From a virus, in the IMG/VR virus record IMGVR_UViG_3300028394_000240, positions 1-29,933 of that record: a stretch of DNA of 29,933 bases. The stretch is one strand, 5' to 3'. The translations under genes and the position numbers were made by a program. The notes beneath the pieces are model-generated. The model made no database searches and was not told where the DNA came from. It saw only the letters and a program-made list of their open reading frames with translations. Every line of letters starts with the position of its first letter. The stretch's first letter is position 1. Below are positions 1 through 24,466 of the stretch, piece after piece.

Positions 1-2344
1 TCATTTGAAGACTAGCCTCTTCTGCTCGGCGCGCTAACTCAGCGTTTTGAGCAGCACTAGCCCGAGCGTCCATCATCTCAGGGCTGCGCGAACGGATAGC
101 CGCTTGATCAAGTGCAAGTGATTTTTCACGCGCTTGAACCACCGCGTCTTCAACCCACTTACGATCCATCATGCGGCTAACAATTGCCTTGTCGCTTAAC
201 TTTTCAAAGCCTGGGCTTACTTCAGCAATGTAAAACTTGGTTTTATCAAATGCTACTTTTTCAGCGGCGGTCAAATTAAAGTTTTGTTTTAACGTTACTT
301 TGTCTACTGCCGACCCTAGCGTTGACATATAGTTTTGGAAAGTTTCAGGCGTAGCACCTTTGATTCCTTGGCTTGCGGGAATCAGTTTGCCGCTGATTGG
401 GTCTAAGTCAAACAGCGTACCGCCACCTGCTGGTGTGCGGTTACTAGCTTCAGCAGCAAGACCTTCAGTTTCAGCCATTTGTGCCATACGCGCGCGCCTA
501 GCGTCTTCTGCGCGCAGTCTAGCCGTAACCTCGGGTGCCTCATCTAAACCAAGACGCAAAGCGTTGGTTGATGAAGGTTGACCTTGCATCATTGGCAGTC
601 GCGCGTCAGGTCGGTTTGGATCAAAAGGCACCCGCGTGGTTTCACCAGTTGGGAATATAAAGTTTGGGTTGTTGCGCGGATCAAACGGCACAACATTGGA
701 TTGACCAGGCTCAACAGGACGCAAATTGTTAATGGGTGGTCGATAGTCTTTTGGTACAGCGCGTGACGCCTGAAACTCAGGCGACGTCATTCTATTAGCT
801 GCGACTCGGCGAATAATATCGCTAGTGCCAGCACCAATAACGGCGCCTACCGGCGCACCAATACCGCCAAAAGCGCTGCCGATAATGCCACCAAGAGCGC
901 CGCCTGGCCCCGCACGGGTAAAGCTAGGCAGTAACTTTTTACCCTCTGAAGTTAAAGCGGCAATTTCAGGAAAGTTAGATACGATCTTACCGATGTCGGC
1001 AATCACACCACTTACTGGTTTGCCTTCGGACACAAGTTTGGCAAATGCTTTTGGGTCAACTTGACCTGTGCCAAAGTCAGTTGCGGCTTCAATGTCGTAA
1101 GTTTGCGCCATTTTTTGGCGCGCTTTTACAAAATTATTGCGCGCTCTAAGGTTTGTAATGTTTTCGTCAATCAACTCTTCTAAAACACGCGCGGCATTCA
1201 TCTTGGCGTTGGCTTCTGCGCGCGCCGCGGGCGTTACAGGATTTCCCGCCTTTTCAGTACGGATGACGTTTTGCGCTTCTTGGCGCATTTGTTGAATACT
1301 CTTCAACAATTTGCCACCACTTCCACCTTCAGCCAATTGCGTTTTTAAATTGCTCAAATACGCGTTGGTTGCCGCGGCTTGACCGGTATCACCAAACAAT
1401 GGTGTTACTTGAAGTTCATCTAACTTCTGAAGTGCACCTTCAGGCACACGGATGCTAGGGATGTCTTGCACAACTTTGTAAGGGCCGGAAATATCATCCC
1501 TTGCACGAATATCATCAAAAACTTTTGCATTGTTAAGCGAAACCTCATCACCAAGACCTAAGTCTTTTTTTACAATTTCTGTCCATTTTGGTTTGTTGGC
1601 TTTTGATAAACGATCATCAAGATCAGCGCTGCCAATTAAACCTGTGCGTACACGGTTGCGCGCGCTAGGGTTGGATGCCGCAGGGTCAAGCGCAATGCCA
1701 TATTTTTGAGCAAGGTTTGCAGCTTCAATTTGAGGCGCGCGCGCATAACTTTCGGCAACGCGAGATTCTTGAATCTGCTTAACCAAAGGTATTTCACCCG
1801 CAGCACTTTTTAAATATCCCGCTTCGTTTTTAATTGCACTTGGTAATTGCCGAGCAGCAGCAGGCGCCATTGCAACAGCAGTCGCGCCTTGAGCAAAGGG
1901 AATGGCGTTAAAGTCTACGCCTTGCAGTTTCTCGCCAGCGTATCCAATAATGTCTTTGGCGGTCTGTGTTTGCGGCGTGTAGGTAAGCGCGCTCTCAACA
2001 TTTTTGCCAAACCGTGCGCCCTGGGCGCGGCCTTGTGGTGTATTAACGCCGCCTAGCAATTCACCGGCTACAGCAGCAAAAGGAGCAACTGCCCCTTTAA
2101 GTATTCCTGTGCCTGCTGTAATTGCAGTTTCAGGAATGCCAGCAATGTAATCCAATACCCCGCGGCTAGGCGCGCGCTCAGAGGGCATGGCATCCGGTTG
2201 ACGAATGACTTGACCTTTTGCGTTGAGTTGTGGCACGGCGCTGCCGTATTGGGATGGGGCAACATTTAACCCTTTCGCTAAATAAGCGTCAGGATCGAAT
2301 GCAACAGGTTTGGCTAGATATGCATCAGGATCAAAAGCACCCAT
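1..2344 (-). CDS. large internal virion (ejection) protein, C-terminus cut off by window edge
   Basis: The frame is open from the ATG at 2344 to the left edge (781 codons, no stop), so the true protein is longer. The N-terminus holds two near-identical copies of the decapeptide AFDPDAYLAK (about residues 3-12 and 15-24), followed by a hydrophobic/small-residue stretch. The middle is charged, helical and Lys/Glu/Gln-rich, and a Gly/Ala segment near residues 485-510 (GGALGGIIGSAFGG-like) could insert in a membrane. No lytic transglycosylase or peptidase motif is visible in the part present. It is the last gene of the late operon, where P22 has gp16, and starts 3 bases after the preceding stop. 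I infer a protein ejected with DNA or forming an internal core. The ORF is certain; the role is inferred from position and composition. Confidence 0.8.
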   Translation of the reverse strand, partial: MGAFDPDAYLAKPVAFDPDAYLAKGLNVAPSQYGSAVPQLNAKGQVIRQPDAMPSERAPSRGVLDYIAGIPETAITAGTGILKGAVAPFAAVAGELLGGVNTPQGRAQGARFGKNVESALTYTPQTQTAKDIIGYAGEKLQGVDFNAIPFAQGATAVAMAPAAARQLPSAIKNEAGYLKSAAGEIPLVKQIQESRVAESYARAPQIEAANLAQKYGIALDPAASNPSARNRVRTGLIGSADLDDRLSKANKPKWTEIVKKDLGLGDEVSLNNAKVFDDIRARDDISGPYKVVQDIPSIRVPEGALQKLDELQVTPLFGDTGQAAATNAYLSNLKTQLAEGGSGGKLLKSIQQMRQEAQNVIRTEKAGNPVTPAARAEANAKMNAARVLEELIDENITNLRARNNFVKARQKMAQTYDIEAATDFGTGQVDPKAFAKLVSEGKPVSGVIADIGKIVSNFPEIAALTSEGKKLLPSFTRAGPGGALGGIIGSAFGGIGAPVGAVIGAGTSDIIRRVAANRMTSPEFQASRAVPKDYRPPINNLRPVEPGQSNVVPFDPRNNPNFIFPTGETTRVPFDPNRPDARLPMMQGQPSSTNALRLGLDEAPEVTARLRAEDARRARMAQMAETEGLAAEASNRTPAGGGTLFDLDPISGKLIPASQGIKGATPETFQNYMSTLGSAVDKVTLKQNFNLTAAEKVAFDKTKFYIAEVSPGFEKLSDKAIVSRMMDRKWVEDAVVQAREKSLALDQAAIRSRSPEMMDARASAAQNAELARRAEEASLQM

Positions 2345-2346
2345 TA

Positions 2347-4197
2347 CTAGCCTCCAAGGCGTTGTCTAATTTGCGCTGCGCGAGGGTCTTTAGGATTGGC
2401 ATTTGCCCAATCCATAGCTGCCTTGTCTTCGCCGGTTAACGCAGGCGCGCCACCACTTGTTGACACAGGCTTATGATACTGCGTGTTTCGCCATTGATCG
2501 TTGTACTTTTCAGACGCTAAATTTTCAAGCGCTTCAAATTTTGCCCGTACAGCTTCTAGCACAGCCCTTGCATCCTTAACATCCATTTTTGGGGTAATGG
2601 TTGCAAGCATACTTTCAACAATAGGCCACTCTTTCTCGGTCATTGCGCCAATTGAGCCACCGGCGCGAAACATTTGCAAACCTTTGTTTTTCAAATCGCT
2701 TTTTAATGAATCAAGTTCAGCTTTAACTAAAGCGGTATTGCCGCTAAGTTCTTTTGTTGCGTATGCGGTAAAGCCGCCAAAATTGTTTTCAAACCCTGTT
2801 TTGTTTTTAGGGTCTAATATTTTATCAATTCGTTCTGTGCCCCATTTGGTTGTGGCTTGCGTAGTTTTAAGAGCGCCTAAGTCCTTGCCGTGTTTTGTCT
2901 GTTGCTCAATAAACGCGGCAGAGCCAGGCACTTGCTCAACCATTTGTGTTTTTTCGTTCCAACGCTCATCAGGTTTAAGTCTAACGCCTTCAGGCACTCC
3001 TGTTTGAGGAATTTTAACTTCTTCCCCTTTGTTATTGTACTGATACCCAACGCGCGGCGCAGGGCGCGCCACAGGAAGATTAATGCTAGTGCCGCTAGTA
3101 ATATCAACCGCTCTTGGCATTGCACCTGTTTTAAGAGGTTGTGCAACCCCGTATTGATCAAGTTTACCTTTTACAGTTATATATGTTCCTGGCTTTTCAG
3201 GATTTTCAATCGACATATCAACTAAGTTGCCGCCGTATTCTCGCTCGGCAGATGCCATTAATTGAGTACGTTCTGCATTAAGTTGCTGAACATTTGCCGC
3301 AACTCTAGGGTTAGACATATAGGGTCTAAGGCGCGTAATCTCAGCGTTAATATCTTTTATTTGTTGAAACTGGTCGCCCGTTGGAGCGAAAGCGGGTGCA
3401 GATGCCGGAGCAGTAGCGGGTGTTGCAGCCGGTGCTTGCGCGCCAGGCACCAACATATTTGCAACGGGTGCAGCAGGTGTTGCGCCTACCGTTGCGGGCA
3501 GCGCGTTAGGCACTCCACCGCCCGTTGGTGCGGACATAGGTGCAGCAGAAGGAACACCGCTACCGCCGCCCATAGGAATGGCGGGCGTTCCTGTGGTTGT
3601 AGGTTTACCAAATAACCGATCGGCTTCAGCCCGTTCTTTTTGTTCCATAGCTAATCGAGCATACGCAGGGCCGGTAGCTGTTGCCGCATTAGCACGCGAC
3701 GTTTCATCCTTAAAAAAACTGTCAAGACCCATTGCCGATTTTTTAAGTACGGTGTTAAATCCTGACTTTGCAATTTCTGTATCTAAGTTTGCAAGCGCAA
3801 TTTCAGGCGTTAATCCTCGCGCTTTGAGCGCAGGCCCCATTACAGGGTCACTAAACTGGCTAATTGTATATTCGCGTAAACTTTCAGGCGAGTTAACCAT
3901 CGTAAGGGCTTCGCGTGAATTTTTATACGCTGCACCCAACAATTCGCTTTGTGTCTTTTGTCCGGCTAGGTATTTAGCCTCAATGTCTAACGCCATTTTA
4001 GGGTTAGCTGCGCGCAAACGCTGAACAAACGCAGGGTCACTTAAACTGCCGCCTGATGCAAAAGCATCGCGCAATGCGTTTTGTCCTTCATACTCTTGTT
4101 GAGCGCTTCGCAACTGCATCATCTGCCCCATTTGGGCAAGCATATTGGGCTGCTCTATAGGGCGTATGCCCATTGCAATATTTGGGTCGATTGCCAT
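2347..4197 (-). CDS. internal virion / ejection protein, 616 aa
   Basis: The start MAIDPNIAMGIRP is at 4197, ten bases after the upstream stop. Residues 1-190 are Gln/Ala/Met-rich and probably helical. Residues 200-275 are a low-complexity Ala/Pro/Gly linker. The rest is mixed and ends in WANANPKDPRAAQIRQRLGG, a C-terminal pattern I have seen in other phage structural proteins. It is the second of three long consecutive genes at the end of the late operon, matching the P22 gp7-gp20-gp16 ejection block by position. I cannot assign an enzymatic activity. The coding call is very safe; the ejection role is inference. Confidence 0.8.
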   Translation of the reverse strand: MAIDPNIAMGIRPIEQPNMLAQMGQMMQLRSAQQEYEGQNALRDAFASGGSLSDPAFVQRLRAANPKMALDIEAKYLAGQKTQSELLGAAYKNSREALTMVNSPESLREYTISQFSDPVMGPALKARGLTPEIALANLDTEIAKSGFNTVLKKSAMGLDSFFKDETSRANAATATGPAYARLAMEQKERAEADRLFGKPTTTGTPAIPMGGGSGVPSAAPMSAPTGGGVPNALPATVGATPAAPVANMLVPGAQAPAATPATAPASAPAFAPTGDQFQQIKDINAEITRLRPYMSNPRVAANVQQLNAERTQLMASAEREYGGNLVDMSIENPEKPGTYITVKGKLDQYGVAQPLKTGAMPRAVDITSGTSINLPVARPAPRVGYQYNNKGEEVKIPQTGVPEGVRLKPDERWNEKTQMVEQVPGSAAFIEQQTKHGKDLGALKTTQATTKWGTERIDKILDPKNKTGFENNFGGFTAYATKELSGNTALVKAELDSLKSDLKNKGLQMFRAGGSIGAMTEKEWPIVESMLATITPKMDVKDARAVLEAVRAKFEALENLASEKYNDQWRNTQYHKPVSTSGGAPALTGEDKAAMDWANANPKDPRAAQIRQRLGG

Positions 4198-4207
4198 GAT
4201 TTATTCC

Positions 4208-5497
4208 TTAAACAACAGGGATTGAATAGATGTTAGAGCCACCTGCGGCAGTCTGTTTATCTCTAAACATATTTAACAATTGATTTTGATAATACGCATT
4301 GCTAATCCCACTAATACCCTGATTAAAGGCGTTAGCTTGACCGATATAACCTGACGCAGTAGCGTTACCCGCGCCTGTTGTTAAGTTAGATGCGTTGTTG
4401 CCATAGCCTGTCAATGCGCCTGTCAAACCGTTAATGTAATTGCTATACGCTTGTTGCTCTTGCGTACCTTTTGCACCGTAGATGTTAGATACATTGCTGC
4501 CGTAAGTGCCCGCCACATTGGCTGTATTTGTGCCGTAAGACCCTGCTGCGCCGCCCGCCGCCGAGCCATAGCCACCAATTGCACCAATGGTTTGACCGCC
4601 CGATGTACCGATTGCGCCTGCGCCAATGTTGCCGTAATTGGCTAACGCATTAAACCCTGTTTGGCCATATTGTCCGTATGAGTTTGCAAGACCAGTTGCC
4701 GCGTTAAAACCAGTACCTTGCAAACTTTGATAAGGGCTAAGAGTGCCCGCCCGCGCGGTCTGAAACCGATTAAATGCGTTTTGATATTCTTGTGACGCCA
4801 AATTACTAGAATAACTTGCGGCTCCTTTTAACGCGTTACCGGAAAGTAAACCACCACTAGCGGCAGCTTTGCGGTCAATTGCTTTTAAACCTTCACTAAT
4901 GCGAAAACCGTAGCCTGGGTCTTGGTTGTTAAGAAACGCTTGGGGTGTAAATTCAGCCGTGGCGTATTTGCCGTAATCAGTTGCTCTTGCGTCGCCCCCA
5001 ACGCCGAGGTACTCAAGCAAACGATTTTGACCGGCTAAACCTGCTTGGTTGTACGGTTGGTATGTACCTACTTGATTATTTAAAACGCCTTGAGCAAGAG
5101 CAAGTTGCGCGTCTTTATTAGCTGTTGCAAAATCAAATTGCTCGCCTCTAGTAGCTTGCGCGGCGGCAATTTGTTGGTCGCGCGTTTGCGCGGCAATGTT
5201 GGTTTGCTCTTTATAGGCATTAGTTAACGCTAGTTTTTGCTGCTCAAGCGCATCAAATTGCGTTTTAAGCTGCGAATCCATAATGCCTTGCTGCGCCCTA
5301 AGTTGCTTATTCAGGATATCTTGTTGCGCTTCAATAGCTGTTTGCGCCATTGCTAATTGATTAGCTTGCGCTTCGGCTGAAGCATTGCGCTGGGCGCCAG
5401 CAGCTTTGCCCGCTGCGTTAGCGCTAATAGCTGCACCGCCTACAGTCGCGGCTGCGCCGATCAATGTAGCCGTAGTCGCTGAGATTCCAAAAGTCAT
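4208..5497 (-). CDS. internal virion / DNA-transfer protein, 429 aa
   Basis: The N-terminus (about residues 8-32) is a small-residue hydrophobic segment of Ala/Gly/Thr/Val that could be membrane-active. Residues 35-125 are a long Gln/Ala-rich coiled coil. Residues 245-380 are Gly/Asn/Tyr/Ala-rich with repeated GTYGS, SYGTN and GNIGA-like elements. Hydrophobic helix plus coiled coil plus Gly-rich tail is common for podoviral proteins that leave the capsid with the DNA. The start ATG overlaps the stop of the cupin gene in an ATGA, suggesting translational coupling. Its position corresponds to P22 gp7. It could alternatively be a tail-needle-like component; the coiled coil alone does not decide this. 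Confidence 0.78.
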   Translation of the reverse strand: MTFGISATTATLIGAAATVGGAAISANAAGKAAGAQRNASAEAQANQLAMAQTAIEAQQDILNKQLRAQQGIMDSQLKTQFDALEQQKLALTNAYKEQTNIAAQTRDQQIAAAQATRGEQFDFATANKDAQLALAQGVLNNQVGTYQPYNQAGLAGQNRLLEYLGVGGDARATDYGKYATAEFTPQAFLNNQDPGYGFRISEGLKAIDRKAAASGGLLSGNALKGAASYSSNLASQEYQNAFNRFQTARAGTLSPYQSLQGTGFNAATGLANSYGQYGQTGFNALANYGNIGAGAIGTSGGQTIGAIGGYGSAAGGAAGSYGTNTANVAGTYGSNVSNIYGAKGTQEQQAYSNYINGLTGALTGYGNNASNLTTGAGNATASGYIGQANAFNQGISGISNAYYQNQLLNMFRDKQTAAGGSNIYSIPVV

Positions 5498-6018
5498 GTT
5501 ATTTCCTTATTGCCAAATGAAGCAATTAAGCCTAAGTCATTGTAACTAGGTGCTATTACTTCGGTTTCCATTTTGTCAAGATTCTCTTCTCCAACGTGTT
5601 CGGTCAAGTGAACCGTTGTCCAAAGCGTATCTTCCTCGGCGTACACAGCACGTTTAAGCCCAACTTCAGAAATAAACGTACATGGTGCTACAAGTTTTTT
5701 TTCACCAAACTCGGTAAAGACAGTAACTTTGCCCTTAGAGATAAAATTCAGATGCTGGTGGCGGTGAATTTTACCAATGATCAGCGTTCCTTTTGGGATT
5801 AGCATCTCGCGGGCGTAGGTACAACATCCGTACTTTTCATCTTTAGGCGTAAAGTAATGTTTAAGCGTACAGTCTTCTAGCGTTGAAGGAATCGCACCTT
5901 CGGCAATTAACTTTTCCATGCCTTCTTGCACAGTCATAATGTCTTGCCTAAATTTAATTTTGGCGGGCGTATTCTGAAACAGCGCGGGATCGTAGGTTAC
6001 TTTCATACCAGCACCCAT
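5494..6018 (-). CDS. cupin-fold protein
   Basis: With the ATG at 6018 the protein has 174 residues. A cupin-type metal site is visible: GKIHRHQHLNFISKGKVTVF, with His85, His87 and His89 in the first motif and a later candidate His137 in VHLTEH. A glycine and proline pair (IPKGTLIIG) precedes it as in beta-barrel cupins. Cupin proteins occur sporadically in phage tail regions, and their role is not settled. A longer frame opens at 6063, but its extra residues overlap the end of the upstream gene and look like shadow sequence. A start at 6006 (MKVTYD) is also possible. None of the three has a convincing Shine-Dalgarno. The frame overlaps the next gene by ATGA. Confidence 0.8.
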   Translation of the reverse strand: MGAGMKVTYDPALFQNTPAKIKFRQDIMTVQEGMEKLIAEGAIPSTLEDCTLKHYFTPKDEKYGCCTYAREMLIPKGTLIIGKIHRHQHLNFISKGKVTVFTEFGEKKLVAPCTFISEVGLKRAVYAEEDTLWTTVHLTEHVGEENLDKMETEVIAPSYNDLGLIASFGNKEIT

Positions 6019-6032
6019 AATTGTTGGTACAT

Positions 6033-6989
6033 TTAGGCAACGTAAGTGCCGGAAGAAGTCCACTTCACAATTGTAAACGCGCCCGAAGTTGTGACAGTAG
6101 GTGATCCAGTTACGGTGCCGGTGTACAACGATGTTTGGATTTGCATAATTGCAACGCCCGAACCGCCTGAACTTCCCGCAACAGCTTGTCCGCCGCTTGT
6201 GCTGTTTGAGCCACCACCGCCTCCTCCACCGCCTAAGTTAGCCGTGCCGGCCGACCCGCTAGTAGGCGTGTTGCTACCGCCTGCGCCGCCCCCGCCCGAG
6301 CCACCCGCACCACCCGCACCTGTATAACCGCCACCACCGCCACCACCGCCATACGTCACGCTTGAGCCGGTGATGCTACTTGCCGAACCCGCCCCGCCGT
6401 CGCCCGCAGTTGTATTCTGTACTGAGTTGCCGCCCACAGCACTAGCACCGCCGCCGCCACTTGCAGGGCGCGCGTTATTGCCGTTAACTGTGTTGATGCC
6501 GCCGTCAAAACCTTGAACTGGCGTAGTTGCTGGTGTGTTGCCTGTGCCTTTTGCTGAGGTTGCAACAGCGGTACTACCGCCCGCGCCACCACCTGAACCG
6601 CCGTTTAGCCCCGAGCCTCTAGACGGATTAGCATCCGCATAGCCCGAGCCACCGCCACCACCACCTGCTGCGCTTAAAGATGAGAATGAAGTGTTTGATC
6701 CTGATGAACCTTGAGCCGTTACAATACCCGCAGCACCACCCGCACCAACCGTCACGGTGTAAAGTTGACCCGAGATAAGCGGAATTGCAGTCAATGACCG
6801 AAAGCCCCCTGCGCCGCCCCCTGCGCCCGACGATCCCGACAATGTCGCATCCGCGCCACCACCGCCACCACCGCCACCAATAAGTAATAACGCAACGGCA
6901 ATAGAATTATATTGTTGCAAGTCGCGCATCGTCCAAATACCGCTTGTACCTGTGATGCGGTATGGCCCCATAATTCTGCCGTTGCTCAT
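6033..6989 (-). CDS. glycine-rich tail fibre-like protein, 318 aa
   Basis: After an N-terminal unit (residues 1-30, MSNGRIMGPYRITG, then WTMRDLQQYNSIAVALLLIG) the protein is dominated by poly-Gly, Gly-Ser and Gly-Ala runs up to about residue 285. The pattern (YTVTVGAGGAAG, SAAGGGGGG) is typical of the glycine-rich domain of phage tail fibre or adhesin tips, where polyglycine helices pack into a sandwich. The last 30 residues (TGTVTGSPTVTTSG..., ending SSGTYVA) form a beta module also found at the end of the glycine-rich protein at 13521-15167. The start overlaps the upstream stop as TAATG. Likely role: receptor contact or fibre tip, by family analogy. Confidence 0.85.
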   Translation of the reverse strand: MSNGRIMGPYRITGTSGIWTMRDLQQYNSIAVALLLIGGGGGGGGADATLSGSSGAGGGAGGFRSLTAIPLISGQLYTVTVGAGGAAGIVTAQGSSGSNTSFSSLSAAGGGGGGSGYADANPSRGSGLNGGSGGGAGGSTAVATSAKGTGNTPATTPVQGFDGGINTVNGNNARPASGGGGASAVGGNSVQNTTAGDGGAGSASSITGSSVTYGGGGGGGGYTGAGGAGGSGGGGAGGSNTPTSGSAGTANLGGGGGGGGSNSTSGGQAVAGSSGGSGVAIMQIQTSLYTGTVTGSPTVTTSGAFTIVKWTSSGTYVA

Positions 6990-7363
6990 TACGAAATGTC
7001 CTCATAAGAGCAAACCACTTTAAGTTTGCTTGCGGTTCCGGCGGTTGCGCCGATTGACATATTTTCTTCAAGATAGATCATGTTGGTTTTATCAATCACG
7101 ATCAAACTTGAGGCAGCAGGGATCGAAATGGTGGACGCAATAGGCGTTGCCGTGCCGCCAAGTGCCGCCGCCGAGTATTGCGCCACCGTGACGGTCACGG
7201 CGTTAGCTGAGTCGGTGTTGGCAACCACAAGCGAATCCAATTTAAACACTTTGCCGCTTGACGCAGCATTGCTTAGAACGGACGTTGCCGCAGTTGTTGT
7301 TAAATCGGCAGTCACGACTTTGCCGTAGATTGCGCTGACGTTGACAATGTTAGGTGCGGCCAT
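6989..7363 (-). CDS. small beta-rich virion protein, 124 aa
   Basis: Residues are mostly Val, Thr, Ala and Ser in alternating hydrophobic patterns (TVTVAQYSAA, STISIPAASSLIVID), predicting a beta-sandwich with no cysteine except near the end. There is no signal peptide or membrane helix. The composition resembles small fibre, decoration or head-associated proteins of aquatic podoviruses. It sits between two fibre-like genes and shares a TAATG junction with the glycine-rich gene. The precise function is unknown; the virion role is inferred from operon and fold type. Confidence 0.8.
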   Translation of the reverse strand: MAAPNIVNVSAIYGKVVTADLTTTAATSVLSNAASSGKVFKLDSLVVANTDSANAVTVTVAQYSAAALGGTATPIASTISIPAASSLIVIDKTNMIYLEENMSIGATAGTASKLKVVCSYEDIS

Positions 7364-7366
7364 GAT

Positions 7367-7981
7367 TTATAGTCCAAAAATGATTGAAAAAGCGATTGCT
7401 TTGCCAGCGGAAATGCCAGCCGCAACCATTTGAAATCGCGTACCGTCGTACTCAATTAAAATTATTGCCCCTGCTTTAATATCACCCGCCACCAAAGGGG
7501 TTGTACCAAATTTGGTAATTGATTTAGCGCCCAACGTGTCAATATCAAGGGTCACTGCACCGGTGTTGGTATTCTGAGCAATAAAGCTGTATTGCGCGCC
7601 CGCAGTATATCCACCCAAAGTAGGTGTGGCCAAACCGGTCAATGTATTTGTACCGGCAACTGTAATCAAGTTGTTAACGCCAGTTGTGTCGTTAATTGCG
7701 GGAATACTGTCGTATGACCCAATCTGAACGTATGTTGAAGACTTGAGCAAAAACTTGTATAGCACCCCGCCGTCTAGCCAAATTTCAGCCGGTGTGCGCC
7801 CCGCTGCGTCCAACACAATTGGGTTGGTGTTATTAGTTGTACCGTCGCGTGTGGTATAAGTCGTAACTGGCGTGGTGGTGCCCGACAGATAGCTGTACAG
7901 CAAGCCGCCTGTGAGCGGGTCACCATTGCTGTCAAAGAACTGCGAGCCCGCACCGGCAAAGGCTGAGAGATTGATGGACAT
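7367..7981 (-). CDS. tail fibre / tailspike N-terminal-type protein
   Basis: The N-terminal 80 residues carry a motif very common at the head-binding end of phage tail fibres and spikes: QFFDSNGDPLTGGLLYSYL, then GTTTPVTTYT, then NPIVLDAAGRTPAEIWLDGG and YKFLL. The remaining about 110 residues are a beta-rich region with NTLTG, GAVTLDIDTLG and a terminal Phe-Gly-Leu. At 204 residues it is far too short to be a full spike, so it may act as an adaptor carrying the fibre-like neighbours. It starts on a TAATG junction with the preceding 67-residue gene. Confidence 0.85.
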   Translation of the reverse strand: MSINLSAFAGAGSQFFDSNGDPLTGGLLYSYLSGTTTPVTTYTTRDGTTNNTNPIVLDAAGRTPAEIWLDGGVLYKFLLKSSTYVQIGSYDSIPAINDTTGVNNLITVAGTNTLTGLATPTLGGYTAGAQYSFIAQNTNTGAVTLDIDTLGAKSITKFGTTPLVAGDIKAGAIILIEYDGTRFQMVAAGISAGKAIAFSIIFGL

Positions 7982-8184
7982 TAGACTATCCCTGTAATAA
8001 TGCCGTTGACGACCGTCACGGTTTTAAAGTCGGTTGTTGTAAAAGTGCCTGAAGCCCCGCCCGCACCGCCGCCCAATTGCTCATACAACGCGTTAAAAAA
8101 CCTAAACCATTCGCGCGACATAAGCCCCGTAGCAGGGTCAATAACAGGCACCCGAGGCGCGGGGATTTGAGTAATGTTGCTCAT
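7981..8184 (-). CDS. small conserved phage structural protein, 67 aa
   Basis: It has the recurrent phage sequence PAPRVPVIDPATGLMSREW followed by FRFFNALYEQLGGG, then a Gly/Ser/Thr tail ending in VTVVNGIITGIV. Short proteins with the PRVP-hDP-TGhhSREW pattern are widespread beside tail-fibre genes of podoviruses and siphoviruses. The C-terminal strand GTFTTTDFKTVTVVNG resembles trimerising fibre ends. It overlaps its upstream neighbour by ATGA and its downstream neighbour by TAATG. No biochemical function is known to me. Confidence 0.82.
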   Translation of the reverse strand: MSNITQIPAPRVPVIDPATGLMSREWFRFFNALYEQLGGGAGGASGTFTTTDFKTVTVVNGIITGIV

Positions 8185-9707
8185 GCTGCGGTTGCCACAA
8201 CATTAAGTTCAGCCGCCATGATGGCAATCTTGACCGGATCGGTGCCTGAAATCTCATACACCCGATCACGCAACTTTTCAGTCATACCAAGACGACGCCA
8301 AATAACACGGGTGCCATACTCGCCTATACCGCCCATTGATCTCCAATGCTCGTTTGACCAAGTGTGACCGCCATCGTCTGACCAACGCAACATTACCAAA
8401 GGCTGTACATAATCGTCTACAGACATGATAATTTCAATCTGATCCACAATGCCAATTGAACCTGATACGATCATGGGGCTCAAATACACGCGCCCTGGTA
8501 TTTCGGTGCGGCCTTGCAGACCCACGCCGGATTCGCAATTTAATTGCAAAGAATGTTGGACGGTACGTTTAAAGTTATTGGTGCCGGTGGGCAACGCCCG
8601 CCATGAACGCAACCATTTTTGAGTGCGGGGGCCATCTGCGTAGACTTCTAAATCAAAAGCGTACAAGTTGCCGTTTTGAAAATCGCCTACAATAACTTCG
8701 TTGTTAAAAAACATTTGGCAATTGCTGCGGTGACGACTAAAGTCGCCGTTACTAAAACTTGCCCGCTCATGCCATGCTTGCGAGGCCACGTCATACACCC
8801 AAGTTGCTTGCGCGGTGGGGAAGGTCAGAACATAAAACGAATGACCGTCTTGCTGATAAGTGTAGGCAATTGCGTCTGAAATGTCGCCGTACTGCTGAAT
8901 CTGCCACTCAATGGCGTGGGTGCTGATACGCACACCGGTGTAGCCTTGCGAGCGGTAAACAATACCTTGCCCACGATTATCTGCGCCTAACCAAAACAAA
9001 CCGTTGTCTAGTTTGGCAACCGAAAAAGTTGCCGCGCAACCAATTTCGTTAAACGCACCTTGAATGCGCGCTAAAGGAAAGCCTGCGCCTGGTGCTGCGT
9101 CGTACCAAACCTCAACCGAGGTTGTGCCAAATAGCCAAACCTCAGAATGGTCGGTAATAGATGACACTAAACCGTCGGGGCTACCCTCGGCGCTTGCGAA
9201 ATCAAGAGGGTCAACTAGCAATGGGTCGAGCAATTCTGTCACCCATACGCGCTGGCTATCGGGTTCGATAAATACAAAATAACCGTCAAGGTACGACACC
9301 GTTAATGCGCCAGGGAAGTCTACATCCGTAATCTGTGCAAACACGGTAGTCGTGGCGTTGTAAATAAAACTTGGGCCATTACACGCTACAAACAAATGAT
9401 TGCCATTATCTGCCATTGACACGGGGCCATCGTTGGCGACCACGCCAAGCGTGGTGATGGCGTATTGGTTATCGATGCGATAAAGCGTATTGCCTGACAC
9501 GACATAGCCGTAACCACCGTATTGCCAAAGCCCACGCACGGGGCCTGTGCCCACGGCAACTAATAGTTGAAGCCCTGGAGCCCTGTTTAAAAACGCAGGT
9601 TCCAAGCCGCCCTCGGGGATCACCTCGGGAAACAAATTGACCATGCGATTGTTGGCCGCGTTAATGCTGCGCGTCACATAGGCTGAACCAAGGATGGGCG
9701 ACTTCAT
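8181..9707 (-). CDS. packaged-DNA stabilisation protein, P22 gp10-like (tail hub)
   Basis: The N-terminus SAYVTRSINAANNRMVNLFPE, followed by LEPAFLNRAPGLQLL, matches what I recall of P22 gp10-type stabilisation proteins (Phage_stabilise family). In P22, gp10 forms the lower neck and tail hub that closes the portal after packaging and anchors spikes and needle. The rest shows repeated beta-propeller-like strands with Trp/Tyr (VRGLWQYGGYGYVVSG, HLFVACNGPSF, VWLFGTTSVEVWYD). The length of 508 is close to the P22 protein. The neighbour upstream is gp4-like, the P22 order. It overlaps both neighbours (TAATG and ATGA). Confidence 0.9.
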   Translation of the reverse strand: MKSPILGSAYVTRSINAANNRMVNLFPEVIPEGGLEPAFLNRAPGLQLLVAVGTGPVRGLWQYGGYGYVVSGNTLYRIDNQYAITTLGVVANDGPVSMADNGNHLFVACNGPSFIYNATTTVFAQITDVDFPGALTVSYLDGYFVFIEPDSQRVWVTELLDPLLVDPLDFASAEGSPDGLVSSITDHSEVWLFGTTSVEVWYDAAPGAGFPLARIQGAFNEIGCAATFSVAKLDNGLFWLGADNRGQGIVYRSQGYTGVRISTHAIEWQIQQYGDISDAIAYTYQQDGHSFYVLTFPTAQATWVYDVASQAWHERASFSNGDFSRHRSNCQMFFNNEVIVGDFQNGNLYAFDLEVYADGPRTQKWLRSWRALPTGTNNFKRTVQHSLQLNCESGVGLQGRTEIPGRVYLSPMIVSGSIGIVDQIEIIMSVDDYVQPLVMLRWSDDGGHTWSNEHWRSMGGIGEYGTRVIWRRLGMTEKLRDRVYEISGTDPVKIAIMAAELNVVATAA

Positions 9708-10423
9708 TAATAGTTGCCCGCAAAGATGTTGAAGCGTTGACGCGTTGCAACAATTGAATACGGCAGCGACATAATATCGTCGGGGTTGTTGATGCGTTTT
9801 AAGTTGCGCTTAGAGTACATGGCAATGCGCGACACTTGGGGTGAGGGTTCAACACCAAACTCAGGTGCAATCTCACAGGCCAAGTTGTAACGGAATGCCC
9901 GAAGATAGCCTGGGGGGAACGTCAAGGGCGTAGACAACAACGCAGCAGTAGTCAATTCTTCGACCGATATAATATGCCATTCCAACACCTTGGTAGGCAC
10001 CGGATAGACGGTCATCGTAATGTCGGGGTAATTCATGTTAACAAACATAACTTGCGGGTAGGTGGACGTCACGGTCTTAACCGCAATGCCGTCATACTGC
10101 TGCTGATTGATTAGCTTAATGCCAAACGAAATGCCCGAAGACGCATCGCGGAAGTAAGTCGAGTCATCTATCAGAATAGGGCGGTTGCCTACAAAGTCGC
10201 CCGTGGGGCCAAGCGTACGGGTAGCAAAGTTTGGTAACCAAGAGAAGACTTGGTCTTGCGTTGAAAACACCGACAAGCGCTCGGTGTTCCATGAGTCAAT
10301 CATCTGATTGAGTGCCATTAACGCGTCATTAGCGGTCGCAGCCGACGGTTCTTCACCTTCAGCCAGTTGACCGATTAGGCGTAACGCCCCATTGATTTGA
10401 TCACCGGCTGTGGTTGTGGTCAT
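9707..10423 (-). CDS. head-to-tail adaptor, P22 gp4-like tail accessory factor
   Basis: The N-terminal helix-rich part (GDQINGALRLIGQLAEGEEP, then ALMALNQMIDSWNTERL) and the later FPPGYLRAFRYNLACEIAPE segment are typical of P22 gp4-type tail accessory factors, which dock under the portal ring and start tail assembly after DNA packaging. The protein has 238 residues against about 166 in P22, so there is an extra central region. It stands directly before the gp10-like gene, with stop and start sharing TAATG. The assignment rests on pattern and order and is strong. Confidence 0.87.
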   Translation of the reverse strand: MTTTTAGDQINGALRLIGQLAEGEEPSAATANDALMALNQMIDSWNTERLSVFSTQDQVFSWLPNFATRTLGPTGDFVGNRPILIDDSTYFRDASSGISFGIKLINQQQYDGIAVKTVTSTYPQVMFVNMNYPDITMTVYPVPTKVLEWHIISVEELTTAALLSTPLTFPPGYLRAFRYNLACEIAPEFGVEPSPQVSRIAMYSKRNLKRINNPDDIMSLPYSIVATRQRFNIFAGNY

Positions 10424-17491: not shown

Positions 17492-19644
17492 TGTGGTTGC
17501 TCCATCATTGGGGGCTGCATCTGATCGGGTGGCATCATCTCTTCAGGCGGCATCATGCCTTGGTCAGGCGGCATCTCAAACTGCTGACGCTGTGGGGCGC
17601 CACCAATCAGATCACCCGTATCCATTGCGGCTGCAACCGTACCCATCACAATGTCTTGGATTTGCTCAAAAGTCATACCGGCTTGAACGGCTGAGATACG
17701 CTTGGTTTCAGCGTCGAACGCTTTGATCTGCGCCTCATAGTCTTTGCGCTCAGACTCTTGGACTTCCATAGACTTAGACACGTTTTGCAGCATGGTGTGC
17801 ATCTGCTCCATCTCTTTAGCCATTGCTTGCATCTGTTGCTCGGCGGCTTGCAAGGCTGGGTCTTTGTCACCGTCGTCCATCAACTTAGGATCAATGGTCT
17901 TGGCAAAGCGTTTAGCCATTTCTTGAGCACCAGGCCAATCCATGTTCTTAATGAACAGATCGCCCGCAACCGACCACAATTGTGGGTTGCCTTGCAGCAA
18001 TTGACCCATAGATTCCAACGCCTCTTGGCGTTTGGTCATGTAGCTTGGGCCGGTCGTGACCATCACGTCGTAAGTGCCGACACTAGGGTTGTAAATCTTG
18101 TCTATTTCTATACCGTTTTGGTCAACTATTTTCTTAACCGGCTCTTGCTGATTAGGGTCGATCTTGGCTGAATCAGGTTCGCCATCCTCACCCATGATGC
18201 GCGCCACGCGCTGCGTGTCGTAAATCTTAGGCACTAAGCCAATAATTTGGCGCGTTATGTGGCGTACCGCGCGCGCCAAGTTATCAACGTAGTGATAAGT
18301 GCCGGTGTCAGCCTGACGCTCACGCGCCATGATAGCCTTGCCAGAACGCTCATTGGACGTTTGCCCAAGGCTAGAGTCATATTGCCCTGTTGTTGACTTA
18401 ATATCGTCGCTAGCACCCGCTTTGGCTTGCAGCAAGCCACTTGACGCCATAGGGGGTTGCGCGCGTTGTGGCAAGGGGAGCGTACCGCCCGCACCGTCCG
18501 TTACATCAGGGTTAACTTCAAGGTAAGGCCAGTTAGTCGTGTTGGCTGTTTTCCATTGAGTTTCATAACCCTCAAACTGTCCGCCGTAGCCGATAAACGG
18601 TGCTTTGGGTGCCAAAGCGAGCATCTCAGCCTCTTGGCTTACCCAATAGTTGTACATCCGCTGTGCATCTTTGGCATTACGCACAATGCCCGACACATGA
18701 ATGCGCCCGTCGATCTCAAATTCGTTGCCAACCACACGCACAACCGGAATCCAATCGCCCGCCCAATCGTTGCTTTCTAGCACCTCAAAGCCGTTAATCT
18801 TGCAATGTTTGACCTTTTTAATGTCAACCGCGCGGCTTTTGATTGGTTTCATGCCCATCTGAACCATCTGTTGGTCTTCAGGTGAGCCCTTCATGGCACT
18901 AACATTTCCGTAGTACAAGTTTAGTGTAGCTTTCTCATGCTCAACGTAGTAATAGTCAGCAATCCGAATGGTGTCTACGCTTAACCACGGTGCGTAGGAT
19001 TCGTTGCCCACGCTTTGCGCTTGTAAGGACGACACAGGTTGTGCGTCCGGAAACATACGCTCAAAGTCTTCAAGCATGAGGTCTTCAGTTACAAAACACC
19101 ATTGGGCGTCTGACCCACAAGGGTCTTGGATCGTTGGATCCATGTAGACTGAAAAAGAGTTGCGAATACGCCCGATCTTGATGTTCTGATCAAACGAATT
19201 GGCACTCTCATACTCGGTGAGTAACCGGATATAGCCTTCGCCATACGCCACTTGGTTCTCACAAGCGGTGTCGTATGCAACGTCTGCGTCAGACATATAC
19301 TCAATGTGACGCACCATGCCGTTAAAAATCTCAGCCACCTCAACATCCGCCTTATCGTCAGCGGGGATTACTTTCCCACTTGGTCGATTTTGGCGTTGGT
19401 CGTTGGTGACTTGTCTGACGTGCTGGGGAAGTTTGTTGATGGTAAGGCAAGGTCGAGCGTTAATGGTTTGGCCTTGAACTGAGCCTCGCGTTGCAAGTAC
19501 GTCAGCGGGCCATTGGAATTGGTTGTCTGGGCTTGCTGCATAGAATCGAAGGTCATCTAGTTCATCCTCACGGCTGTCAGAATAGGCGGCAATCGCCATT
19601 GTCATGCGATGCAGTGCGGTTTCTATGATGTCTTTATCGCTCAT
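17488..19644 (-). CDS. portal protein, P22 gp1-like
   Basis: At 718 residues it matches the P22 portal length (725). It has the P22-portal pattern: RPCLTINKLPQHVRQVTNDQ, then FNGMVRHIEY with DADVAYDTACENQVAYGEGY, and later QMVQMGMKPIKSRAVDIKK. The region STTGQYDSSLGQTSNERSGK is the typical SNExSG motif of podoviral portals. The C-terminal 130 residues contain a coiled coil (AEQQMQAMAKEMEQMHTML) and a Met/Pro/Gln-rich tail. Twelve copies would form the DNA channel that the terminase docks on. It overlaps the GroES-like gene by ATGA. Confidence 0.92.
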   Translation of the reverse strand: MSDKDIIETALHRMTMAIAAYSDSREDELDDLRFYAASPDNQFQWPADVLATRGSVQGQTINARPCLTINKLPQHVRQVTNDQRQNRPSGKVIPADDKADVEVAEIFNGMVRHIEYMSDADVAYDTACENQVAYGEGYIRLLTEYESANSFDQNIKIGRIRNSFSVYMDPTIQDPCGSDAQWCFVTEDLMLEDFERMFPDAQPVSSLQAQSVGNESYAPWLSVDTIRIADYYYVEHEKATLNLYYGNVSAMKGSPEDQQMVQMGMKPIKSRAVDIKKVKHCKINGFEVLESNDWAGDWIPVVRVVGNEFEIDGRIHVSGIVRNAKDAQRMYNYWVSQEAEMLALAPKAPFIGYGGQFEGYETQWKTANTTNWPYLEVNPDVTDGAGGTLPLPQRAQPPMASSGLLQAKAGASDDIKSTTGQYDSSLGQTSNERSGKAIMARERQADTGTYHYVDNLARAVRHITRQIIGLVPKIYDTQRVARIMGEDGEPDSAKIDPNQQEPVKKIVDQNGIEIDKIYNPSVGTYDVMVTTGPSYMTKRQEALESMGQLLQGNPQLWSVAGDLFIKNMDWPGAQEMAKRFAKTIDPKLMDDGDKDPALQAAEQQMQAMAKEMEQMHTMLQNVSKSMEVQESERKDYEAQIKAFDAETKRISAVQAGMTFEQIQDIVMGTVAAAMDTGDLIGGAPQRQQFEMPPDQGMMPPEEMMPPDQMQPPMMEQPQ

Positions 19645-19886
19645 ACAAGCCCGATTACGTCCTTGTCTTTCATTAAAATCAAATCTTCGTACTTGCGATC
19701 AATCGTGCCGCTGTACATGACATGATCGCCCACGCTCACCATTAAGGGTCGCTTGGAGTCTTTCTTGCCTGGCCCAACTGCCACAACCACGCCTGTGCGG
19801 GTGTCTTCCTCGGGCATAATAATCAGCCCGCTTTGAACAAACGGGTCAGGACGTACCGCAATATTGTCGTGTAGAGGTTGGATCAT
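19641..19886 (-). CDS. GroES-like co-chaperonin
   Basis: The 81-residue product MIQPLHDNIAVRPDPFVQSG, then LIIMPEEDTRTGVVVAVGPG, and VSVGDHVMYSG with DLILMKDKDVIGLV, follows the GroES (Cpn10) layout from end to end. Residues 15-31 hold the mobile loop with hydrophobic LII, equivalent to the IVL that contacts GroEL. The family is usually 95-100 residues, so the roof loop is shortened. It overlaps the portal start by ATGA, so it is likely made with capsid proteins to help the host GroEL fold coat or other proteins, as T4 gp31 does. This role is inferred. Confidence 0.85.
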   Translation of the reverse strand: MIQPLHDNIAVRPDPFVQSGLIIMPEEDTRTGVVVAVGPGKKDSKRPLMVSVGDHVMYSGTIDRKYEDLILMKDKDVIGLV

Positions 19887-20743: not shown

Positions 20744-22264
20744 TTAAGCTCCCATCCAAGAAGTTTGTGCGCCTTGCGGCGAATAGTTGCGACTTTTAGG
20801 TTCTACGTACTCACGGTGCGCGACGGGGAATGCAAACGTCACGCATATAGCATCTGCGGCGTCCGGAGAAGCCAACCCCCTCGCCCGCATATCCTTTTTA
20901 GACTCCAAAAAGATAGTTCCTTTTGAATCCGGTTTCATTACAGGTGATATTAAATCAGTTTTAAGTATTCTGTCACTAGGAATCGACGCAGTTTTTAACC
21001 ATTGGCGCATATCGCCCCACATTTGTGCCCTTAAATTACCATACATGAGCGGATTTTTGGACTTATTGCCAAAATTCACGCCCCGAATCTTGTAGCGTTG
21101 CTCTTTCAGTCGGTCAACTACCCCACCGCCCACACCACCTTCGTCAATCACCACCAACGCGGGCTTATATTCCTCAATACACTCAATAACGTGCCCGACA
21201 ACGGTCATCGTGTCGTCGCCCTTAAAGCGTTTGATGCCAATGATGTCACGCCCTTGGCGGATTGCGATCACGGTTGAGTCAGAACCAAACCGTGCAGGGT
21301 CAACGCCCACAATAATGGGGGCGGACAGGTCTTTGAGGCGGGCTCTACGCATGGCTTCGTCCACGATTGATGACGATATAAACTGATCATCACCCGCTGA
21401 TGGAAAGTCACCGTAGACTTCAACCGCAGCTTGTGATGAATCCGCACCATATTCGTCGATGATTTGCTGGTAAACGGCTTTATCTGTGCCCTCGACCGTT
21501 CTTGCGTCCACAATCTTGGTGTTCCAAAAGTCACGCTTAGAGTTGTGGCATTCGTAGAAGTAACCGGTGTTGCGGCGCGGGTTCGAGAACGCCAACCAAA
21601 AGCGGTTAGGCGTGTTCTCGGTAAAAAAGCCAGCGGTCACCGCCCAAATGGCGTCGTCAATACCGGAGGCCTCATCAAAGATCACCATCACGCCGTCGTA
21701 GTTGTGGACGCCCGCGTACGCATCAGGGTTCTCGCTTGACCAAAGCCTGCCTTCCACCGACCAATAGCGTGTGCCTTTCTTTAGGTCACGCTCAACCAAC
21801 TCAGTCATCCACTTAGCGGGCATGAGCCGTGTGGCGCTGACTTCAAACCAATGGCTGTTAAGTGACATGGCCAACCACTTGGTAATCTCTGCCCAAGTGA
21901 CTGATCGTAATTGGCTTTCGCTGTTGGCCGAGATAATGGTTGTTGAGCCAATCCGTGTAGAGAGCATCCACAGGGTCAACCAACTGACGAGCGCCGACTT
22001 GCCAATCCCGCGACCGGATGACGTCGCCATCCTAAACGTGTCAAAGTCAACCTTGCCGTTGTTCTGCTTAATGTGCGCGGTCAGGTCTGACAACACTTCG
22101 CGCTGCCATTTGCGTGGGCCGGTGAAGCTTTCTAACGGTGTGCCTTTTTGACCCCAAGGGAACGCGTACAAGACAAAGGAGAGTGGATCGTCTTTTATCT
22201 TAGGCGCCCATAGACGACTCATGAGAGCCATCTCTTCTTCGGGGGAGTAGAGGGGGGTTTGCAT
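20744..22264 (-). CDS. terminase large subunit (ATPase-nuclease)
   Basis: Both halves are complete in 506 residues. Walker A SSGRGIGKS lies at 82-90, Walker B GVMVIFDEAS at 191-200 with Asp197 and Glu198, and LAFSNPR (225-231) fits the coupling motif. The C-terminal RNase H-like nuclease has GVDPARFGSD (320-329, Asp322), VVIDEGGVGGG (371-381, Asp374) and ASPDAADAICV (465-475). The protein cuts concatemeric DNA and pumps it through the portal. It is the first gene of the late operon. The small subunit is not beside it but on the other strand at 23906-24466. No Shine-Dalgarno is obvious at the ATG. Confidence 0.94.
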   Translation of the reverse strand: MQTPLYSPEEEMALMSRLWAPKIKDDPLSFVLYAFPWGQKGTPLESFTGPRKWQREVLSDLTAHIKQNNGKVDFDTFRMATSSGRGIGKSALVSWLTLWMLSTRIGSTTIISANSESQLRSVTWAEITKWLAMSLNSHWFEVSATRLMPAKWMTELVERDLKKGTRYWSVEGRLWSSENPDAYAGVHNYDGVMVIFDEASGIDDAIWAVTAGFFTENTPNRFWLAFSNPRRNTGYFYECHNSKRDFWNTKIVDARTVEGTDKAVYQQIIDEYGADSSQAAVEVYGDFPSAGDDQFISSSIVDEAMRRARLKDLSAPIIVGVDPARFGSDSTVIAIRQGRDIIGIKRFKGDDTMTVVGHVIECIEEYKPALVVIDEGGVGGGVVDRLKEQRYKIRGVNFGNKSKNPLMYGNLRAQMWGDMRQWLKTASIPSDRILKTDLISPVMKPDSKGTIFLESKKDMRARGLASPDAADAICVTFAFPVAHREYVEPKSRNYSPQGAQTSWMGA

Positions 22265-22317: not shown

Positions 22318-22370
22318 CCCTCCGCTAGCTAGGGCTCCTCGGCAGGGCTCCCCCCCCCTACCCCCTCGGC

Positions 22371-22559
22371 TGTTGCGTTGCAGCATTGCTGCGCTGCGGC
22401 ACGGCTATGCTGCGCTGCACTAGCTGCGCTGCAACATGTCTTTATGCTGCAATGCGGCATTGTGCTGCGCTGCAACATATTGCAATGCAACATTGTGCAA
22501 TGCAACATGGCATAATGCGCTGCAACATTCACAGCTCGAGCATTGTGCAATGCAACATC
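22371..22559. repeat. array of TGC-rich 13-15 bp direct repeats (array A)
   Basis: Within a 400-base stretch without a gene (22265-22666) about ten copies of TGC(A/G)(A/C)TGCAACAT or close variants occur. Best copies start at 22423, 22463, 22480, 22495, 22515 and 22545; those before 22460 are more degenerate (AGCAT, GGCA). Several are head-to-tail every 15 bases (22480 and 22495). All point the same way. Reading frames through here on both strands are low-complexity artefacts. The array lies between the divergent terminase and gp88-like genes and may bind a protein that controls one or both, or act in replication or partition. Confidence 0.75.
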
Positions 22560-22614
22560 GATATATTGATTTATTGTGAGCATTTGAGAGGATTATATGT
22601 AAACGTGGGCAAAA

Positions 22615-22654: not shown

Positions 22655-22666
22655 CAGGAGCACGAC

Positions 22667-23404
22667 ATGTTATCAATTAGCTCAGACGCAAAAACAGTAA
22701 AAGGCCTCAAGCTTGGTTTTCTTACCGGCATACTGTATCTAACACCTAGCGATCTCTCAGGCCAACAGGTTTGCCCTATGGCCAAGTTTGCAGAATGCGA
22801 GGCGCCATGCTTGTTTAGTGCTGGCCGTGGCGCGTTCACTAGCGTACAGATTGCACGCCTATCAAAAACAGACTGGTTTTTTAATAGTCGCGACACATTC
22901 ATGCTCGAATTAATTGATAGCGTGTTTGCTTTAATCCGGCAAGCCATGCGGCAAGATTTGACACCAGTTGTGCGATTAAACGGCACCAGCGATATTAGAT
23001 GGGAAAATATACCGGTTACATATAAAGGTGTGACTTATACCAGTATTTTTGCCCTATTTCCCCAAGTACAGTTTTACGATTACACCAAGCTTGCAAACCG
23101 TAAAAACGTACCGGCTAATTACGATTTGACGTTTTCCTATAGTGGCGCGCTAGCATACCAAAAGTATGTACAGCAAGCCATTGCTGCAAAAATGCGAATT
23201 GCTGTAGTGTTTAGAACCGTGGCCGATATCCCCAAAAGCTTTTTGGGTTTGCGCGTTATACCTGGCGACAATAGCGACATCCGCCATGTTGAGCCCAAAA
23301 ACCGCATTGTGGCTTTGTATGCCAAAGGCCAAGCCAAAAAGGATACAGGCCCCTTTGTAGTCGATACCATCCGCAAAATTATCCCCATCAAGCTTGCAGC
23401 ATAA
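22667..23404 (+). CDS. gp88-like protein with cysteine cluster (TIM-barrel-like)
   Basis: AGGAG lies 6 bases before the ATG. The 245 residues follow a pattern I recall as phage gene product 88 (PF17338-type): KLGFLTGILYLTPSDLSG, VCPMAKFAECEAPCLFSAG, RGAFTSVQIARL, LTPVVRLNGTSDI, VQFYDYTK, NYDLTFSYS, and VIPGDNSDIR. Cys36, Cys44 and Cys48 (C-x7-C-x3-C) could hold a metal or Fe-S cluster. The alternating strand and helix series suggests an alpha/beta barrel. The activity is unknown to me; I do not claim radical-SAM chemistry. It is the first plus-strand gene after repeat array A. Confidence 0.82.
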   Translation: MLSISSDAKTVKGLKLGFLTGILYLTPSDLSGQQVCPMAKFAECEAPCLFSAGRGAFTSVQIARLSKTDWFFNSRDTFMLELIDSVFALIRQAMRQDLTPVVRLNGTSDIRWENIPVTYKGVTYTSIFALFPQVQFYDYTKLANRKNVPANYDLTFSYSGALAYQKYVQQAIAAKMRIAVVFRTVADIPKSFLGLRVIPGDNSDIRHVEPKNRIVALYAKGQAKKDTGPFVVDTIRKIIPIKLAA

Positions 23405-23446: not shown

Positions 23447-23521
23447 ATGTTAGAAAAGATCCACGCAGCAATCGCAGCGTTACTCATGTGCTGCGCTTTT
23501 TTACTTTCACTCTATCTCTAG
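23447..23521 (+). CDS. predicted tiny membrane peptide, 24 aa
   Basis: AAAGGA lies 6 bases before the ATG. MLEKIHAAIAALLMCCAFLL, then SLYL, is a single hydrophobic helix. It lies between the gp88-like gene and a 64-residue gene on the same strand. Short length means it may not be translated, but the ribosome site is good. Holin-like or membrane-signalling roles are possible; none is shown. Confidence 0.45.
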   Translation: MLEKIHAAIAALLMCCAFLLSLYL

Positions 23522-23529
23522 GCTCAACT

Positions 23530-23724
23530 ATGACCAACATTCAATCATTCACTTCTTATGTCATAAATTTTTATGGGCCGAAAGGTCTGTACCCTATTAC
23601 AGGCGTCACAAGAGCAAAAATAGGGAAATTGGCCATTGTTTTAAAGCTTCAACATTTTGATAGTGTTGATCGTGAAATGATCCGTGATGTTTTACTTGAA
23701 AATCCAAACACAAGGTTTATGTAA
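23530..23724 (+). CDS. small uncharacterised protein, 64 aa
   Basis: ATG 23530 follows AGG about 6 bases upstream. The product MTNIQSFTSYVINFYGPKGL, then YPITGVTRAKIGKLAIVLKL, and QHFDSVDREMIRDVLLENPN, looks like a compact alpha/beta domain. I do not recognise it. A longer frame from a GTG at 23422 would swallow the tiny peptide in another frame and is unlikely. The last stop overlaps the ATG of another tiny membrane peptide. Confidence 0.7.
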   Translation: MTNIQSFTSYVINFYGPKGLYPITGVTRAKIGKLAIVLKLQHFDSVDREMIRDVLLENPNTRFM

Positions 23725-23813: not shown

Positions 23814-23837
23814 AAAGCGCCTTAGGGCGCTTTTTTT
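23814..23837 (+). terminator. strong intrinsic terminator
   Basis: AAAGCGCC (23814-23821), loop TTAG, GGCGCTTT (23826-23833) forms a perfect 8 bp stem running straight into seven T. It ends the gp88-like operon and insulates the terminase small-subunit gene 70 bases downstream. Confidence 0.9.
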
Positions 23838-23905: not shown

Positions 23906-24466
23906 ATGACAATCGAGCACAATTCAACACAATTATCACCACAAACCCCTATTTCACCACAAGACGCAAAGCTTGCTGTTTTAGATAAGCGAGATGACTG
24001 GGGGTTATTTCAACCAGTCTATGACTGGGCATCAATCTGGCCTGTAGTGTTAAAAGAGATCGGAAACGGGTCAAGCTTGATCTCTGCGATTAAAAAGCCA
24101 GGTTACCCAACATACGACGCGGTACAGCGCCATATGCGTGCGAGACCTGATGTTAGGCGCCAGTATGACGAAGCAATCGAGATCCGTGCTGACTACCTTG
24201 CAGAGACCTTAATCGACATATCGGATGAACCGATACCGGAAGGGTTAGACGGGCCATATCTCAGCGCATGGATCAATCAATTAAAAATTAAGATTGAAAC
24301 TCGCAAGTGGACGGCTGCAAAGCTTCGTCCCAAACAATGGGGCGACAAAATCGATGTGAGTGTTACACACACACAAATATCCATTGTGCAAGCTTTGGAG
24401 CAGGCCGAGGCAAGGTTAATCGATGTAACCGATATCACCCCAAACGAGCCTAAAACTCTAGATTAG
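23906..24466 (+). CDS. terminase small subunit
   Basis: The 186-residue protein has SLISAIKKPGYPTYDAVQRH, then MRARPDVRRQYDEAIEIRAD and YLAETLIDISDEPI, followed by a helical ISAWINQLKIKIETRKWTAA-like region and KLRPKQWGDKIDV. A helix-turn-helix recognition region with YxxVxRHMRxxPxxRxxYxxAxExR is the hallmark of Bbp25-like terminase small subunits. It would recognise pac or cos DNA and pass it to the large subunit. The gene is convergent with primase and separate from the large subunit, which lies on the other strand. Its stop TAG is part of the first repeat of array B. Confidence 0.88.
   Translation: MTIEHNSTQLSPQTPISPQDAKLAVLDKRDDWGLFQPVYDWASIWPVVLKEIGNGSSLISAIKKPGYPTYDAVQRHMRARPDVRRQYDEAIEIRADYLAETLIDISDEPIPEGLDGPYLSAWINQLKIKIETRKWTAAKLRPKQWGDKIDVSVTHTQISIVQALEQAEARLIDVTDITPNEPKTLD

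Follow-up and report, generated by a model that had tools for sequence, protein, structure and literature searches.

A phage GP88 protein with a predicted partial barrel and a possible radical-SAM-like function at the onset of infection

The radical-SAM superfamily (PF04055) contains enzymes as diverse as QueE, the PFL-activating enzyme, viperin, RlmN and spore photoproduct lyase. In the conflict between viruses and their hosts, this type of chemistry is more familiar as a means of defence, through viperin. The canonical Cys motif of the superfamily is CX3CX2C, while ThiC and PhnJ have non-canonical motifs. Dph1-Dph2 likewise has a non-canonical motif (PMC11048331). Three-Cys motifs are also found in two phage families discussed below, Gp37/Gp68 (DUF5131, PF07505) and DUF7227 (PF23872). 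Polyvalent proteins are large multidomain proteins of phages and conjugative elements that travel into the cell with the DNA, described in a paper that names neither gp88 nor radical SAM (PMC5512222). Here, we compare these systems with a GP88 protein encoded by a virus, whose predicted barrel and three-Cys loop after strand 1 are reminiscent of radical-SAM enzymes.

The window, by which we mean the whole stretch of DNA analysed (29,933 nt, IMG/VR virus record IMGVR_UViG_3300028394_000240), is a 29.9-kb virus record encoding portal, major head, terminase, prim-pol, Sak4, SSB and Cas4-type exonuclease proteins, and is probably a fragment. An ORF check of the window found the reading frame, strand and coordinates of the gene under study to be exact, with an ATG at 22667 and a TAA ending at 23404 (245 aa). 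Its features are as follows:

22656..22660 (+), Shine-Dalgarno-like AGGAG, 6 nt 5′ of the ATG, read from the sequence
22667..23404 (+), GP88-family (PF17338) protein, 245 aa, predicted partial beta/alpha barrel (HMM match and AlphaFold model)
22772..22774 (+), codon of Cys36, first Cys of CX7CX3C, in the loop after strand 1 of the model (121/121 sequences)
22796..22798 (+), codon of Cys44 (120/121)
22808..22810 (+), codon of Cys48 (121/121)
22973..22996 (+), RLNGTSDI, residues 103-110, end of predicted strand 99-103 plus loop (alignment, model)
23072..23089 (+), FYDYTK, residues 136-141, in predicted strand 135-140 (alignment, model)
23255..23284 (+), VIPGDNSDIR, residues 197-206, predicted strand 195-199 plus loop, D204 invariant (alignment, model)

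An earlier note, made from the DNA letters alone, had called this protein gp88-like, and profile searches bear this out. It matches Pfam GP88 (PF17338) with an E value of 3e-35 and 122.4 bits against a cut-off of 24.4, over positions 17-224 of the 230 in the profile, and phrog_1617 over its full length (E 1e-60). Both entries are without an assigned function, in line with the note's remark that the family has no established role. Literature searches did not find PF17338, 'gene product 88' together with 'phage', or an experiment on any GP88 protein, and gp88 goes unmentioned in two mycobacteriophage overexpression screens. Judged by its sequence, the window protein is an ordinary member of the family and carries all GP88 invariant residues: the three Cys, RxN...D, YDY, NY, S and D.

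Conservation was counted over 121 non-redundant GP88 sequences, numbered as the window protein. The motifs that had been picked out by eye (C-x7-C-x3-C, RLNGTSDI, FYDYTK and VIPGDNSDIR) all prove to be conserved parts of the family. C36 and C48 are present in all 121 sequences and C44 in 120, and in 53 of them these three are the only Cys. Their spacing varies between CX7CX3C (79 sequences), CX6CX3C (32) and CX5CX3C (5). R103, N105, D109, Y137, D138, Y139, Y152, S157 and D204 are each invariant (121/121), and K141, D201, R206 and K220 nearly so. The PGD of the window protein is a local variant of the consensus DGD. The family is also as widespread as had been supposed: relatives are encoded in 265 phage-collection records, at least about 590 were confirmed in a scan of viral contigs, and further ones occur in one plasmid record and at 38 loci in bacterial or archaeal genomes. 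GP88 is thus a common protein, without annotation, in marine, freshwater and mycobacterial phages.

Structure prediction and a structural search, the route proposed in the earlier note, point towards the radical-SAM superfamily. An AlphaFold model of the window protein, built on a 28-sequence alignment, has a pLDDT of 90 and a pTM of 0.87, and another, for a relative from Bacteroides that shares 35% identity with the window protein, has a pLDDT of 91.5. Each forms a partial barrel whose Cys lie in the loop that follows strand 1, as they do in radical-SAM enzymes; this agrees with the barrel-like strands that had been noticed before. In the window-protein model, Cys36, Cys44 and Cys48 sit between strand 18-22 and two long helices, in a loop with a pLDDT of just about 73-90. 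The later strands (99-103, 135-140, 152-157, 177-182, 195-199 and 214-218) bear the conserved GP88 motifs at their ends. The earlier suggestion of a barrel bearing an active site is partly supported, by three invariant Cys and a set of invariant polar residues at predicted strand ends.

Structural Z values were obtained by realigning Foldseek's candidates. For the window-protein model, the top 10 matches are all radical-SAM entries (QueE 6.2, NifB and viperin 5.7, spore photoproduct lyase 5.4), followed by glycosidase-type barrels at 4.7 and below. For the model of the Bacteroides relative, the top 19 are all radical-SAM entries (QueE 6.3, PFL-activating enzyme 6.2, SuiB 5.6, viperin and RlmN 5.5), with the first other barrel at 4.5. 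A glycosidase-type identity was set aside, since such barrels, present in the match lists, rank below the radical-SAM enzymes. The best matches are thus radical-SAM enzymes (Z 6.2-6.3), a likeness that is suggestive and short of proof, because Z values below 8 may reflect a common arrangement and because Foldseek alone gave no significant PDB match for either model. Searching the PDB by sequence or profile with GP88 returned nothing relevant.

Sequence comparisons with the superfamily give a mixed picture. None of the Pfam or NCBIfam radical-SAM models scores above its cut-off for GP88; with the PF04055 HMM, the window protein has no match up to E 10, and 28 GP88 members have none at E 1. The canonical CX3CX2C is absent, the window protein having CX7CX3C and the family CX5-7CX3C, and there is no GGE motif. 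Because the canonical motif and the HMM tests fail, we assign the protein to GP88 and do not classify it as a radical-SAM enzyme. Against a profile of 14 canonical radical-SAM proteins, GP88 scores 32.2, a value reached by 0/100 shuffled-block controls in each of two sets (means 15.1, sd 2.5, and 20.0, sd 3.6). In this alignment, C36 falls on the first and C44 on the third Cys of CX3CX2C, and VRLNGTS falls on the strand that carries xxTNG. Random halves of the 14-protein set score 22-32 with the alignment mostly unchanged; a relaxed set of 35 radical-SAM sequences gives a weak signal, and a QueE-type profile gives none. Fold, Cys position and profile evidence together suggest that GP88 works like a radical-SAM enzyme, a step beyond what had been noticed in the DNA letters.

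Our preferred reading, to which we give a probability of roughly 0.5, is that GP88 is a radical-SAM-like enzyme, divergent and probably Fe-S-binding, which phages employ as infection starts. Cys36, Cys44 and Cys48 would hold an iron-sulfur cluster in the loop after strand 1. This cluster would face the invariant polar residues at the strand ends (R103, N105 and D109; Y137-D138-Y139; S157; D204), along with the nearly invariant K141, D201, R206 and K220. SAM or a similar ligand could be bound at the cluster, and the enzyme's target when infection begins would be a small molecule or a nucleic acid, in the service of host takeover or counter-defence. We infer cluster binding, SAM binding, catalysis and the role in host conflict alike from models, alignments and gene context.

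A first alternative keeps the TIM-like barrel and dispenses with SAM chemistry: the three Cys and one other residue would bind zinc, in a structural or hydrolytic site, and the likeness to radical-SAM enzymes would be that of any generic partial barrel. The non-canonical Cys spacing, the missing radical-SAM HMM match and the structural Z below 8 are all compatible with this, with D138 or D204 as a possible further metal ligand. However, radical-SAM structures specifically outrank the many other barrels compared, for both models, and the profile alignment sets Cys motif on Cys motif at a score above controls. We regard a zinc site as somewhat unlikely.

Gene context suggests a role in host conflict. 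Gene 87 of mycobacteriophage Kampy is a GP88 gene, and genes 82-88 account for most Kampy expression at 5 minutes (PMC4626039). In 14 of 24 phage records, the GP88 gene lies close to the upstream record end (within 6%) and points into the record; this count is not independent, because some (circular) records start arbitrarily and many of the phages listed are related. In the Tunturiibacter jumbo phage Tunturi_5, gp272 joins a polyvalent-type InPase domain to GP88 and adjoins a 1489-aa protein with NUDIX, ART-PolyVal and GNAT domains; the pair (4401-10280 of the Tunturi_5 record) carries the annotations 'minor head protein' and 'MutT/NUDIX hydrolase'. In a 1319-aa phage protein, the GP88 domain lies mid-protein, together with the repeated stretch VDLKTGKKINATKKRV (2331-6290 of its record). 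These fusions liken GP88 to polyvalent proteins, from which the window protein differs in being a single domain of 245 aa, and only some of its relatives are fused.

A radical-SAM-like or Fe-S protein could also serve metabolism or nucleic-acid modification, of the phage genome or of tRNA, as phage QueE does, instead of host takeover. The best structural matches include QueE, RlmN and spore photoproduct lyase, and the mycobacteriophage GP88 gene shares its early arm with DNA methylases, both of which fit such a role. Against it, no conserved partner gene was found (no neighbour cluster occurs at more than 16 of 197 loci, or at more than 8 once redundant loci are removed), GP88 is among the earliest Kampy genes, and in Tunturi_5 it is joined to a domain characteristic of polyvalent proteins in phages. 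We consider this role unlikely. A non-catalytic early protein that binds or inhibits a host protein, with barrel and Cys purely structural, would suit the many early phage proteins that are inhibitors, but is quite improbable given the polar character of the invariant residues and their location at barrel strand ends, a pattern typical of an active site.

The reading of GP88 as a radical-SAM-like enzyme of early infection makes it a plausible tool to take over or disarm the host, because of its likeness to Fe-S radical enzymes, its frequent first-gene placement and its fusions in two cases. The earlier suggestion of an undescribed enzyme or host-takeover factor agrees with early expression in one phage and a polyvalent-type fusion in another. 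The hypothesis on fold and cofactor makes GP88 testable at the bench, and would tie phage host takeover to radical-SAM-type chemistry.

Beyond the window, DUF7227 is a probable sister family of GP88, going by profile comparison; no member of it is encoded in the window. The two profiles align co-linearly over 202 columns (probability 64.5%, E 6e-5, score 38.8). The trimmed score of 29.6 is reached by 0/100 shuffles with blocks of 1, 5 or 10 and by 7/100 with blocks of 20, and the signal is weaker without context pseudocounts. Both families share the order N-x-KT, three Cys, (R)..GD in DUF7227 and R.N.TSD in GP88, YTH and YTK, NLS and TFS, VVVV and AVVF, GFxAHG and GLxAKG. Unlike GP88, this phage family has its own CX3CX6C-type motif and an extra C-terminal CPA...CxxCxLC. 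A search with a guessed HVAGDLPG DNA pattern gave nothing useful. More speculatively, and with the odds clearly against the full proposal, GP88 and DUF7227 could together make up a new, non-canonical branch of the radical-SAM superfamily. Phages would spread it as a weapon against defence, immediate-early or injected, with host metabolites, nucleic acid or SAM itself as its target. If true, this would be a radical-SAM family serving host conflict from the virus side.

Gp37/Gp68 was compared in the same way. It has its own three-Cys motif (CX6CX2C), its NSMSD and LTKRxxR look like the NGTSD and YTKxxxR of GP88 by eye, and some GP88 proteins bear the Gp37/Gp68 name in annotation. The profile score of 14.2 is reached by 98/150 block shuffles, which leaves kinship unsupported.

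Around the GP88 gene, the window contains the following:

20744-22264 (-), terminase large subunit gene, beyond the TGC-repeat array and opposite to the GP88 gene
about 22370..22560 (no strand assigned), imperfect TGC-rich repeat array (GCTGCGCTGCA / GCAATGCAACAT), between the divergent terminase large subunit (-) and GP88 (+) genes
23447..23521 (+), 24-aa ORF with a terminator-like hairpin at 23473-23495, directly 3′ of GP88
23530..23724 (+), 64-aa ORF matching phrog_7799 (function not assigned)
23814..23833 (+), intrinsic-terminator-like hairpin and T-run, closing a short operon of the GP88 gene and three small ORFs

The gene does follow a repeat array, as had been noted. Six of the window's seven TGCAACAT sites lie inside this array, against a whole-window expectation of 2.4, and its single-strand fold is unexceptional (z -1.36). 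The array may be an operator, an origin or a packaging region. The + strand immediately 5′ of the GP88 gene showed no sigma-70-like site. That the gene has its own terminator-ended operon is largely right, with the terminator-like site after three small ORFs and a second terminator-like hairpin nearer the GP88 gene, at 23473-23495. The phrog_7799 ORF is likely co-transcribed with the GP88 gene, and was not seen beside GP88 genes in relatives. The 24-aa ORF may be a leader, an attenuation element or a chance occurrence. No tRNA or Rfam RNA was found in the window. An Sf6-type terminase small subunit gene (23906-24466, +) is separated by GP88 from the large subunit gene, which runs in the opposite direction. 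In the structural module, an 81-aa protein (19641-19886) shows a weak match to a GroES-type co-chaperonin (phrog_3188, E 6e-8).
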